9,394 bases of DNA, from the NCBI GenBank assembly GCA_947372535.1, contig CANBUA010000193.1:1-9394 (forward strand), written 5' to 3'. The stretch is from Burkholderiales bacterium (GTDB lineage: Bacteria; Pseudomonadota; Gammaproteobacteria; Burkholderiales; Burkholderiaceae). How positions within the stretch are numbered: position 1 is the first letter of the stretch; every line of letters starts with the position of its first letter. Under the pieces are notes generated by a model. It was not told where the DNA came from. It searched no databases and worked only from the letters and a program-made list of their open reading frames with translations. Shown one piece after another: positions 6,234 through 9,394 of the stretch. The position numbers and the translations under genes are program-made.

Positions 6234-7544
6234 TCAGCGTTGGCCGATGGGCTTGACGTCGCGCTTGACCGAGCCCACGAACAACTGACGCGGACGGCCG
6301 ATCTTGTACTCGGGATCGCCGATCATTTCGTTCAGCTGGGCAATCCAGCCCACCGTGCGGGCCAGCGCGAAGATCGCGGTGAACAGCGGCACGGGGATGC
6401 CGATGGCGCGCTGCACGATGCCGGAGTAGAAGTCGACGTTCGGGTACAGCTTGCGCGAGACGAAGTAATCGTCTTCCAGGGCGATCTTTTCCAGCGCCAT
6501 GGCCAGCTTGAACATCGGGTCGTTTTGCAGGCCCAGCTCGTTCAGCACTTCGTGGCAGGTCTCGCGCATCAGCTTGGCACGCGGGTCGTAGTTCTTGTAC
6601 ACGCGGTGACCAAAACCCATCAGCTTGACGCTGGAGTTCTTGTCCTTGACCTGCGCGATGAAGTCACCGATCTTCTCGACGCCACCATTGCGCTGGATGT
6701 CGGCCAGCATGTTCAGTGCGGCTTCATTGGCGCCACCGTGAGCAGGGCCCCACAGACAGGCCACGCCCGCAGCAATCGCCGCGAACGGGTTGGTGCCGGA
6801 CGAGCCGCACAGGCGCACGGTCGAGGTCGAGGCGTTCTGCTCGTGGTCGGCGTGCAGGATGAAGATGCGGTCCATGGCGCGCACCAGCACGTCGTTGACT
6901 TTGTACTCTTCGCACGGCGTGGCGAACATCATCCGCATGAAGTTCTCGGTGTACGAGAGGTCATTCTTTGGATAGACGTAAGGCTGGCCGATGGTGTACT
7001 TGTAGGCCATGGCCACCAGCGTGGGCATCTTGGCAATCAGGCGGATGGCCGCGACCTTGCGGTGCTCCGGATTGTTGATGTCCGTGCTGTCATGGTAGAA
7101 GGCCGACAGAGCGCCGACCAGACCGGTCATGACGGCCATCGGGTGGGCGTCACGGCGGAAACCACGCAGGAAGAACTGCATCTGCTCGTTGACCATCGTG
7201 TGGTTGGTCACGCTCTGGACGAAGTCTTCCTTCTCCGTGCCGGTGGGCAGGTCGCCGTTCAGCAGCAGGTAGCAGGTTTCCAGGAAATCGCAGTTGGTGG
7301 CCAACTGTTCGATCGGGTAGCCACGGTACAGCAGTTCGCCCTTGTCACCGTCGATGTAGGTGATGGTCGAGTTGCACGAGGCGGTCGACAGGAAGCCGGG
7401 ATCGTATGTGAACTTGCCAGTCTGGCCGTAGAGCTTGCGGATGTCGATGACATCCGGGCCCACCGAACCCTTGTAAATGGGCAAATCCATGCTGGGGCTG
7501 CCGTCTGAAAACGACAGGGTGGCTTTCACGTCGGACGGTGTCAT
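6234..7544 (-). CDS. gltA: Citrate synthase (type II, GltA)
   Basis: Condenses acetyl-CoA and oxaloacetate to citrate, the entry step of the TCA cycle, in the cytoplasm. The 436-residue protein is complete and has the three catalytic residues in their family contexts: H269 in GPAHGGANEA, H313 in GFGHRVYKNYDPRA and D371 in YPNVDFYSG. The sequence HADHEQNASTSTVRL and the overall length match the hexameric, NADH-regulated type of Gram-negative bacteria such as E. coli GltA. The ATG at 7544 is chosen because AGGAG (7550-7554) sits five bases upstream; a GTG two codons earlier overlaps that site and is unlikely. It follows sdhE by 127 bases, so it may have its own promoter as well as read-through from the sdh genes. 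A 12-codon start of a second copy lies inverted at 9357-9394. Confidence 0.98.
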   Translation of the reverse strand: MTPSDVKATLSFSDGSPSMDLPIYKGSVGPDVIDIRKLYGQTGKFTYDPGFLSTASCNSTITYIDGDKGELLYRGYPIEQLATNCDFLETCYLLLNGDLPTGTEKEDFVQSVTNHTMVNEQMQFFLRGFRRDAHPMAVMTGLVGALSAFYHDSTDINNPEHRKVAAIRLIAKMPTLVAMAYKYTIGQPYVYPKNDLSYTENFMRMMFATPCEEYKVNDVLVRAMDRIFILHADHEQNASTSTVRLCGSSGTNPFAAIAAGVACLWGPAHGGANEAALNMLADIQRNGGVEKIGDFIAQVKDKNSSVKLMGFGHRVYKNYDPRAKLMRETCHEVLNELGLQNDPMFKLAMALEKIALEDDYFVSRKLYPNVDFYSGIVQRAIGIPVPLFTAIFALARTVGWIAQLNEMIGDPEYKIGRPRQLFVGSVKRDVKPIGQR

Positions 7545-7549
7545 GAGCA

Positions 7550-7614
7550 CTCCTAGGGGCGGTCTTGTGGAAATTTTATCGAAAGACCAGGGTTAAACCT
7601 GTGTCGGCATTATG
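7550..7614 (-). promoter_or_regulatory. gltA leader: conserved blocks and ribosome binding site
   Basis: The region upstream of gltA can be compared with its inverted counterpart at 9283-9351. Conserved blocks are CATAATGCCGAC (7603-7614), TCGATAA with an adjoining A/T tract (around 7573-7582), CAAGACCG just before the leader, and CCCCTAGGAGTGCTC up to the ATG. CATAAT and TAAAAT both resemble -10 boxes, but neither has a good -35 at the right distance. A small dyad, GGTTTAACC (7591-7599), lies where the other copy has GGGATTTATCCC. The AGGAG is a strong ribosome binding site. Confidence 0.45.
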
Positions 7615-7671
7615 AATCGCGTCGGCACCCTCCCCAGGCATTCGACCAAGGGGGTACCTTCAAATGGATGA

Positions 7672-7983
7672 CTACGCTTGCGGAACCCGCATCATCGACA
7701 ACACCTGCATGACTTCTGAATTAGCCAGATCGGCGCCGGGCTCCTTGCGGGCCAACAGCAGATCCAGCAGGTCATTGTCAGACAGGTCCATCAACTCTAG
7801 CAAGCCCTGGACCAGCGGCGTGGTCAACCGGTCGCCGTGCTGCTCGAAAAATCGCTCGATGAAGAGGTCGTTTTCAAGCAGGCCGCGTCGGCAGCGCCAG
7901 CGCAGGCGGCGCAACGTGTCCGCATCGGGCGTCTGGTCAGGCACTTGTGGCGCCAAGCCAGCCCCATCCAACGGACGCGTCAT
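7672..7983 (-). CDS. sdhE: FAD assembly factor SdhE (DUF339/YgfY family), copy 1
   Basis: Small cytoplasmic factor that promotes covalent FAD attachment to the flavoprotein subunit SdhA of succinate dehydrogenase. The 103-residue protein has the family motif RGxxE (RRGLLEND, about 33-40) and the typical helical pattern with FFEQHG and LMDLSDNDLLDLLLARKE. The start is ATG 7983, which overlaps the sdhB stop as ATGA, a sign of translational coupling. Its N-terminus (about residues 1-17) is longer than that of the second copy at 8942-9232; from TPDAD onward the two differ at 13 of 86 residues. It lies between sdhB and gltA, a common arrangement in Burkholderiales. Confidence 0.93.
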   Translation of the reverse strand: MTRPLDGAGLAPQVPDQTPDADTLRRLRWRCRRGLLENDLFIERFFEQHGDRLTTPLVQGLLELMDLSDNDLLDLLLARKEPGADLANSEVMQVLSMMRVPQA

Positions 7984-8621: not shown

Positions 8622-8900
8622 TACGAGTGCATCCTGTGTGCCAGCTGCTCGACGAGCTGCCCCAGCTTCTGGTGGAATCCCGACAAGTTCGTGGGCCCAG
8701 CGGGCTTGCTGCAGGCCTACCGCTTCATCGCTGACAGCCGCGATCAGGACACAACCGCGCGCCTGGACAACCTCGAAGACCCGTATCGCCTGTTCCGCTG
8801 CCACACCATCATGAACTGCGTGGATGTCTGCCCCAAGGGCTTGAACCCCACGAAGGCCATTGGCAAGATCAAGGAGCTGATGGTGCGCCGCGCTGTCTGA
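8610..8900 (+). pseudogene. sdhB: C-terminal fragment of a second sdhB copy
   Basis: Encodes the last 96 residues of SdhB, from LDGLYECILCASCSTSCP to ELMVRRAV. All seven cysteines of the [4Fe-4S] and [3Fe-4S] clusters are present, but the whole N-terminal [2Fe-2S] domain is missing, so the fragment cannot make a working subunit. Compared with the minus-strand copy it differs at about 28 of 291 bases, with only two amino acid changes (AG to TA in the loop before RLDNLEDPYR). That pattern means that both lineages were under purifying selection until recently, so this was part of a functional gene before the junction formed. The frame is open upstream, but those residues are antisense of the minus-strand genes. 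It is followed after 41 bases by a second sdhE. Confidence 0.9.
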
Positions 8901-8941
8901 TCCTGACTGAACTTGCACTCACTTGACGCACCGCCACCCCG

Positions 8942-9232
8942 ATGACAGCACCCAGCGACACCGTTGACCTCACGCCCGACGCGGACGTGTTGCGGCGTTT
9001 GCGTTGGCGCTGCCGCCGAGGGCTGCTCGAAAACGACATCTTCATCGATCGGTTTTTCGAGCGGCATGGCGAGCGTCTGACCACGCCGTTGGTACAAGGC
9101 TTGCTTCAATTGATGGACCTGGCGGACAATGATCTGCTGGATCTCTTTCTGGCCCGCAAGGAGCCCGAAGGTGATCTGGTGAATGCAGAAGTCATGCAGG
9201 TACTGTCGATGATGCGAGTGCCCAAGGCGTAG
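8942..9232 (+). CDS. sdhE: FAD assembly factor SdhE, copy 2
   Basis: Complete 96-residue SdhE homologue with the RGxxE motif (RRGLLEND) and the same helical body as copy 1 at 7672-7983. Its role would be SdhA flavinylation. It starts at ATG 8942, 41 bases after the sdhB fragment stop, with no strong ribosome binding site visible, whereas copy 1 overlaps sdhB. The N-terminus is shorter (MTAPSDTVDLTPDAD). Changes against copy 1 are mostly conservative (L/I, E/D, D/E, S/A), as expected between orthologues of related species rather than for a decaying duplicate. Confidence 0.92.
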   Translation: MTAPSDTVDLTPDADVLRRLRWRCRRGLLENDIFIDRFFERHGERLTTPLVQGLLQLMDLADNDLLDLFLARKEPEGDLVNAEVMQVLSMMRVPKA

Positions 9233-9356
9233 GTCTGGTGCACGCCTCCCGTTTAAATAGCCGGTGGGCGTGGACTAAGACCCATAATGCCGACCTGGGA
9301 TTTATCCCGAGTCATCGATAATTTCTCCCAAACAAGACCGACCCCTAGGAGTGCTC
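9233..9356 (+). promoter_or_regulatory. Leader of the second gltA copy
   Basis: Spacer of 124 bases between sdhE copy 2 and gltA copy 2. It shares CATAATGCCGAC (9283-9294), a TCGATAA tract and CCCCTAGGAGTGCTC with the left-arm leader; AGGAG at 9347-9351 lies five bases before the ATG. The dyad GGGATTTATCCC (9297-9308) replaces GGTTTAACC of the other copy. Other bases are poorly conserved. Confidence 0.45.
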
Positions 9357-9394
9357 ATGACCCCGTCCGACGTGAAAGCCACCCTGTCGTTTTC
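9357..9394 (+). CDS. gltA: Citrate synthase, first 12 codons of a second copy (cut by window edge)
   Basis: The start ATG at 9357 is followed by codons for TPSDVKATLSF, identical in protein to the start of gltA on the minus strand and differing by one base (ACC for ACA at codon 2). The ribosome binding site AGGAG is at the same five-base distance. The rest lies beyond the right edge, so whether this copy is complete cannot be told. Confidence 0.85.
   Translation, partial: MTPSDVKATLSF

Follow-up and report, generated by a model that had tools for sequence, protein, structure and literature searches.

Introduction

The closest described counterparts of the locus reported here are chimeras formed during MDA, in which, according to Lasken and Stockwell (2007; PMC1855051), 3' ends that have been displaced start synthesis on strands close by. 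In the part of that report concerned with the MDA of one E. coli cell, 406 of the 475 chimeric junctions were inverted, with intervening deletions, and the complementarity at the junctions was 2-21 nt. Intermolecular chimeras, by the counts given there, were direct about as often as inverted (58 and 69 of those joining sites >10 kb apart) and had no preference for near sites (PMC1855051). For an MDA metagenome, a second paper describes most chimeras as inverted, with the joined sites ~500 bp apart on the same DNA fragment, and as rare (<0.07% of unmapped reads) (PMC10945365). In these two papers, inverted chimeras stem mostly from one molecule (PMC1855051, PMC10945365).

The window, by which we mean the whole stretch of DNA analysed here, appears to be an entire contig of 9394 bases (entries P0001 and P0121). 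It carries an sdhB-sdhE-gltA block twice, in opposite orientations, and the right arm of this arrangement runs to the contig end. Comparison of its sequence with that of relatives leads us to conclude that the contig is very probably an in-vitro chimera that joined two co-occurring Aquabacterium species and was carried into the assembly.

Results

Layout of the contig

From left to right, the window contains leuC (cut), a diguanylate cyclase gene, a transporter gene, gltA, sdhE and most of sdhB. At 8610 another copy of the last three genes begins, in the order sdhB (3' part), sdhE and gltA (start). The gltA-sdhE-sdhB genes left of the junction are coded on the minus strand and the second sdhB-sdhE-gltA genes on the plus strand. 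In the following feature list, left genome and second genome denote the two putative sources.

3..698, minus strand: leuC, cut by the contig end (PF00330, E 1.3e-83); left genome
1101..3707, plus strand: tandem diguanylate cyclase with a GGDEF domain per half (two PF00990 stretches); left genome
3859..6105, plus strand: TRAP-type transporter permease, DctM family (PF06808); left genome
6234..7550, minus strand: gltA, citrate synthase, complete (PF00285); left genome
7672..7983, minus strand: sdhE of the left arm (PF03937), its ATG overlapping the sdhB stop; left genome
7980..8621, minus strand: sdhB without its first codons, cut at the junction (PF13085 and Fer4); left genome
8610..8621, no strand: junction CTCGATGGTCTG, which fits the N-terminal site of the left-genome sdhB (reverse) and resembles an sdhB mid-gene site (forward)
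8610..8900, plus strand: 3' part of sdhB in the right arm, without start (Fer4; 90% to the left arm); second genome
8942..9232, plus strand: sdhE of the right arm (PF03937); second genome
9342..9394, plus strand: gltA upstream region and first codons, the gene cut by the contig end (from self-comparison with the left arm); second genome

The aconitase-family (Pfam) gene at 3..698 is one that we take to be leuC, encoding the 3-isopropylmalate dehydratase large subunit, and the names given to the window's genes beyond the Pfam family level are likewise presumptive. Pfam matched Sdh5/SdhE and the 4Fe-4S part of SdhB at two places each, and the full-length citrate synthase profile at one. A search of the window for tRNAs and Rfam families found none. 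The GC content showed no step at the junction; the GC skew flips sign there because the coding strand flips. Between the converging transporter and gltA genes there is a perfect 28-nt palindrome (6177-6204), which is probably a two-way terminator.

The two arms compared

Comparison of the window with itself by BLASTN returned one strong inverted match, between 8607-9394 on the plus strand and 8273-7507 (630 of 799 columns identical, E 0.0). Ungapped blocks between the arms covered 294 nt of sdhB at 90% identity, 268 nt of sdhE at 82%, and 53 nt at the gltA start at 98%. The inverted, diverged double block of the original prediction was thereby confirmed, and its estimates of ~90% identity in sdhB and ~85% in the SdhE protein also hold, the latter being 84% (74 of 88 aligned residues identical). 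Its outline needs correction in two respects: positions 8274-8609, between the arms, are the upstream part of the left sdhB and lie outside the repeat, and the break falls somewhere within 8610-8621 instead of at the single point 8610.

The sdhB arms differ at 29 of 294 nucleotides, distributed 2/1/26 over the three codon positions, and 25 of these 29 differences lie in synonymous codons. For sdhB, the earlier description of the changes as nearly all synonymous is therefore accurate, but it does not extend to sdhE, in which 48 of 268 nucleotides differ (12/6/30 by codon position) and just 25 of the 48 are in synonymous codons. The right-arm genes show codon constraint, and past the junction codon the headless right sdhB fragment has 2 of 97 residues changed relative to the left copy. 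In direct register, the longer stretches common to both arms are 32, 32 and 29 nt. The contig's final 32 bases match the left arm exactly, while past the junction the arms have only 20 bases in common in their first exact run.

The block in Aquabacterium genomes

We searched for the block in a genus set of 42 Aquabacterium genomes, in each of which 7 (left query) and 12 (right query) candidate stretches were scored. The set is the genus of G001, the genome to which the Aquabacterium MAG L001 belongs. The left block matched 40 of the 42 genomes and the right block 36. The genes gltA-sdhE-sdhB stood on one contig in 35 genomes, as a single piece in 21 and as two collinear pieces in 14; among the remaining seven, the block was split over two contigs in G042, partial in G002, G005 and G033, weak in G011, and without a match in G030 and G040. 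The end of an upstream gene was present 5' of sdhB in all 30 relative blocks compared, and this gene was sdhA by Pfam in all five relatives tested. The intact order sdhA-sdhB-sdhE-gltA that the original prediction had proposed looking for in related genomes was seen.

Within the candidate stretches scored, two blocks on one contig were seen in none of the 42 genomes. Two genomes (G023 and G024), both small drafts of 2.3 and 2.6 Mb, carry gltA-sdhE-sdhB once more, in diverged form, on another contig; this extra block may be draft contamination (a mixing of species, at a guess) or a true second copy. One further genome (G029) has an extra sdhB-like stretch (73%) on another contig.

Over the whole query, the left part was at best 88% identical (to G013 and G007) and the right arm at best 82% (to G022 and G001); the gltA pieces were 82-91% identical to Aquabacterium genomes. 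For the transporter (3859..6105), the best relative outside the window reached 76%; among the best 120 of 1217 relatives, the named ones were mostly Aquabacterium or Rubrivivax, with one Acidobacteriota, and the loci in seven named MAGs belonged to three Aquabacterium, two Burkholderiales, one labelled Pedobacter and one Methylomonas.

A junction at an inverted near-repeat of sdhB

The transition between the arms is sharp, the left-arm homology ending and the right-arm homology starting within CTCGATGGTCTG (8610-8621). Homology of the left arm to the relatives stops at 8621 in 30 of 30 cases. Up to that point the arm tracks sdhB as far as the codons CAG ACC ATC GAG, which are exact in 27 of the 30 relatives and match at 10-11 of 12 bases in the rest; the codon preceding them is ATG in every one of the 30 and different in the window. 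The same end point was found among plasmid records, 77 of which match 8274-8700: the five listed all cover query positions 2-348, i.e. they stop at 8621.

The sdhB mid-gene site, where the right arm begins, agrees with CTCGATGGTCTG at 9 of 12 bases in 6 relatives, at 10 in 14 and at 11 in 10, and at all 12 in none of the 30. For the second genome itself, we infer the fit at this site from the relatives, of which the best reach 11 of 12. The two sdhB sites are inverted near-repeats of each other, with 10-11 of 12 bases matching in 24 of the 30 relatives and 8-9 in the other six, and those of the left genome match at 11 of 12; their spacing is 339 nt in all 30 relatives. Since the sites form inverted near-repeats in each sdhB checked, the join fell where the gene offers an inverted foothold. 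A count of 12-mers common to the two arms was partly circular because each of the compared strings included the junction 12-mer. Of 200 shuffled versions of the right arm, moreover, 25 gave a match of at least 12 bases somewhere, and the relatives were relied on instead.

We also searched for the junction itself as a 24-base pattern with up to three mismatches. In 399 genomes of the family, a subset of a larger group, it gave two matches, each with three mismatches and neither of which reads as the junction. The first departs from the junction after CTG, and the first 300 bases of its locus read as sdhA, so that a normal sdhB N-terminus is its most likely identity; the second has three scattered mismatches. 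A scan of viral contigs for the junction gave no match.

Relationship between the arms

Over the 294 nt of sdhB the arms are 0.901 identical, which is at about the 25th percentile of the values among 26 relatives (0.83-0.96 for the 5-95% range, median 0.922). Judged against these relatives, the distance between the arms in sdhB is a between-species distance. In a tree of 28 rows the arms stood apart, in poorly supported positions and with 8 of 25 inner branches open. Forcing them into one clade lowered the log-likelihood by 8.97 (p-AU 0.026, a weak test). By path length, the right arm was still the row nearest to the left (0.41; next 0.42), which tempers the conclusion, and the right arm had other rows nearer to it (0.32). 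On these values the arms resemble two separate species within one genus, and a recent duplication is out.

Sliding comparison of the left arm gave a different best relative in most segments; no clear switch was seen within 8274-8609, where one may nevertheless lie. The SdhE proteins of both arms recur in other contigs: that of the left arm is P0156, an entry for two contigs of which the longer has 17,895 bases, and that of the right arm has a 99% identical counterpart, P0122, in a separate 949-base contig. Both kinds of genome would therefore occur apart from the window.

The tandem diguanylate cyclase

The plus-strand gene at 1101-3707 encodes a protein of 868 residues composed of two diguanylate cyclase halves. 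Both retain GGEEF, one at residue 331 and the other at 763, and aligned over 389 columns they show 38% identity. Matches to this double cyclase were found in 39 of the 42 genus genomes at E <= 1e-60. At least three genomes (G033, G020, G021) have a full-length form without internal stop, at 53-54%, and at least six (G014, G003, G022, G041, G037, G035) have a near-whole-length match with one internal TGA, while in many other genomes two adjacent half-length matches appear among the matches listed. This distribution suggests that the cyclase gene pair was fused, or split, more than once.

Discussion

Formation of the contig

The original prediction was that two related genomes had been joined, and it mildly preferred an artefact to an insertion. 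Judged from the assembled sequence rather than from reads, the case for the artefact is in our judgement stronger than was proposed. The support that we weighed consists of the normal gene order in relatives, the failure of the arms to form a clade (by a weak test), the presence of their SdhE proteins elsewhere, and the position of the junction on an inverted near-repeat, as known from chimeras made by polymerase template switching.

Positions up to 8621 follow gltA-sdhE-sdhB of one genome, and those from 8610 follow, in reversed orientation, the homologous sdhB-sdhE-gltA that belongs to a diverged relative; the 12 nt at which they meet suit either side. While the DNA was being amplified or made into a library, a strand under synthesis on sdhB would have detached with its 3' end in ...CTCGATGGTCTG. 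This freed end could then have paired with the mid-gene site of sdhB, which is similar, and its extension would have produced an inverted junction lacking the intervening stretch. We can only infer the molecular step involved (MDA, PCR, ligation or assembly); PCR cycles, too, can yield similar inverted chimeric products.

Two routes may be envisaged. In the first, the strand would have annealed to a homologous molecule of the other species. In the second, one second-species molecule would have folded back on itself, and assembly or a homologous template switch within 8274-8609 would then have led over to the first species. Since the intermolecular chimeras described for MDA favour neither near sites nor inversion, a random join 339 nt off in the same gene is unlikely, and the second route would explain the near sites somewhat more easily. 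It is unlikely that the left genome alone folded back, since the right side soon departs from the left copy and the first exact run is so short. The contig stops at the gltA start, where both genomes would become identical, as might be expected of an assembler halting at common sequence. The single mismatch that precedes the 32 common bases at its end may point to a k-mer size of 33.

Other explanations

A real insertion, in which an Aquabacterium took up a relative's sdhB-sdhE-gltA fragment and incorporated it, inverted, into its own sdhB via short homology, is the best placed of the alternatives, and we consider it quite improbable. It would account for arms that look like different lineages, for codon constraint in the right-arm genes, and for a junction at short homology, of a kind that can likewise serve illegitimate recombination in cells; in addition, 2 of the 42 genus genomes do have two diverged blocks, though on different contigs. 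Against it, such an event would have cut the host sdhB and left a headless fragment, with no intact sdhB in view, and the left SdhE is found in a different contig, the one of 17,895 bases, as well. No two blocks share a contig in the 42 genus genomes, and no true junction was recognised in an independent genome among the 399 of the family, nor in the viral contigs. Slighter still is the likelihood of the broader idea that a living Aquabacterium carries the inverted fragment of a relative via the 12-nt near-repeat and that sdhB is a hot spot of cross-species rearrangement.

Very little probability also attaches to a pure assembler error, i.e. the merging of two unlinked contigs by overlap without any chimeric molecule. 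The common stretch does fit one parent exactly and relatives of the other parent nearly, and the contig stops after 32 bases common to its own left arm, much as a k-mer assembler might at a branch. This explanation is disfavoured because 12 bases are shorter than the overlaps or k-mers in common assembler use, and the join does not lie at the longer stretches (32, 32 and 29 nt) that the arms have in common in direct register. An old inverted duplication within one genome, the copies of which have since diverged, can almost be dismissed: inverted repeats with a spacer are present and the right arm is the nearest row to the left by path length (0.41 vs 0.42), but arms of one clade are rejected, weakly (p-AU 0.026), relatives with two blocks on one contig were not seen, and sdhB diverged to the extent seen between species, chiefly at third positions, even though the protein of a headless fragment was kept (2 of 97 residues changed).

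Significance and comparison with known systems

If the contig is an in-vitro chimera of two genomes, as we think very probable, its biology is ordinary, and the arrangement is probably no feature of a real genome. Genes predicted across 8610 should then be set aside, together with any duplication or transfer inferred from this contig. The built-in inverted near-repeat of sdhB may be a recurrent place of joining, which would help to flag chimeric contigs.

Among metagenome SdhB entries, P0241, P0242, P0244 and P0248 have internal duplications or look like mosaics. P0241 matches one SdhB, beginning at the start of that protein, over residues 1-141, and over residues 138-345 it matches SdhB once more, this time from ELDG onwards; this motif, at which the entry switches, occurs twice in SdhB. 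P0242 repeats a stretch around DPTLSFRRSCREGVCGSD. Judging by these four entries, chimeric contigs may arise repeatedly at sdhB. The window resembles mosaics of the P0241 type in that a conserved gene, sdhB, runs into another copy of itself at a short motif common to both, and it differs from P0241 in that the join is inverted, whereas that of P0241, a putative artefact, is direct and in frame at ELDG.

Compared with the sdhA-sdhB-sdhE-gltA locus of Aquabacterium, each window arm taken alone keeps the same order; the difference is that the left sdhB is cut and then followed by a second block in reverse. Compared with the MDA chimeras, at least as the junction data in that report describe them (PMC1855051), the window shares an inverted second segment, the loss of the intervening stretch (the 339 nt are missing right of the junction), close sites, and short complementarity at the junction, which extends to at most 12 nt in the window against 2-21 nt in that study (the left site is exact in 27 of 30 relatives and the mid-gene site matches at 9-11 of 12). 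It departs from them in its templates: there, one E. coli cell was amplified, whereas the arms of the window are 10% apart soon after the junction, do not form a clade (by a weak test) and would come from two diverged genomes. This divergence counts against a simple MDA model, in which an extra step would be needed to bring such arms together. Altogether, our claim is of a chimera of two genomes and not of a typical MDA fold-back.
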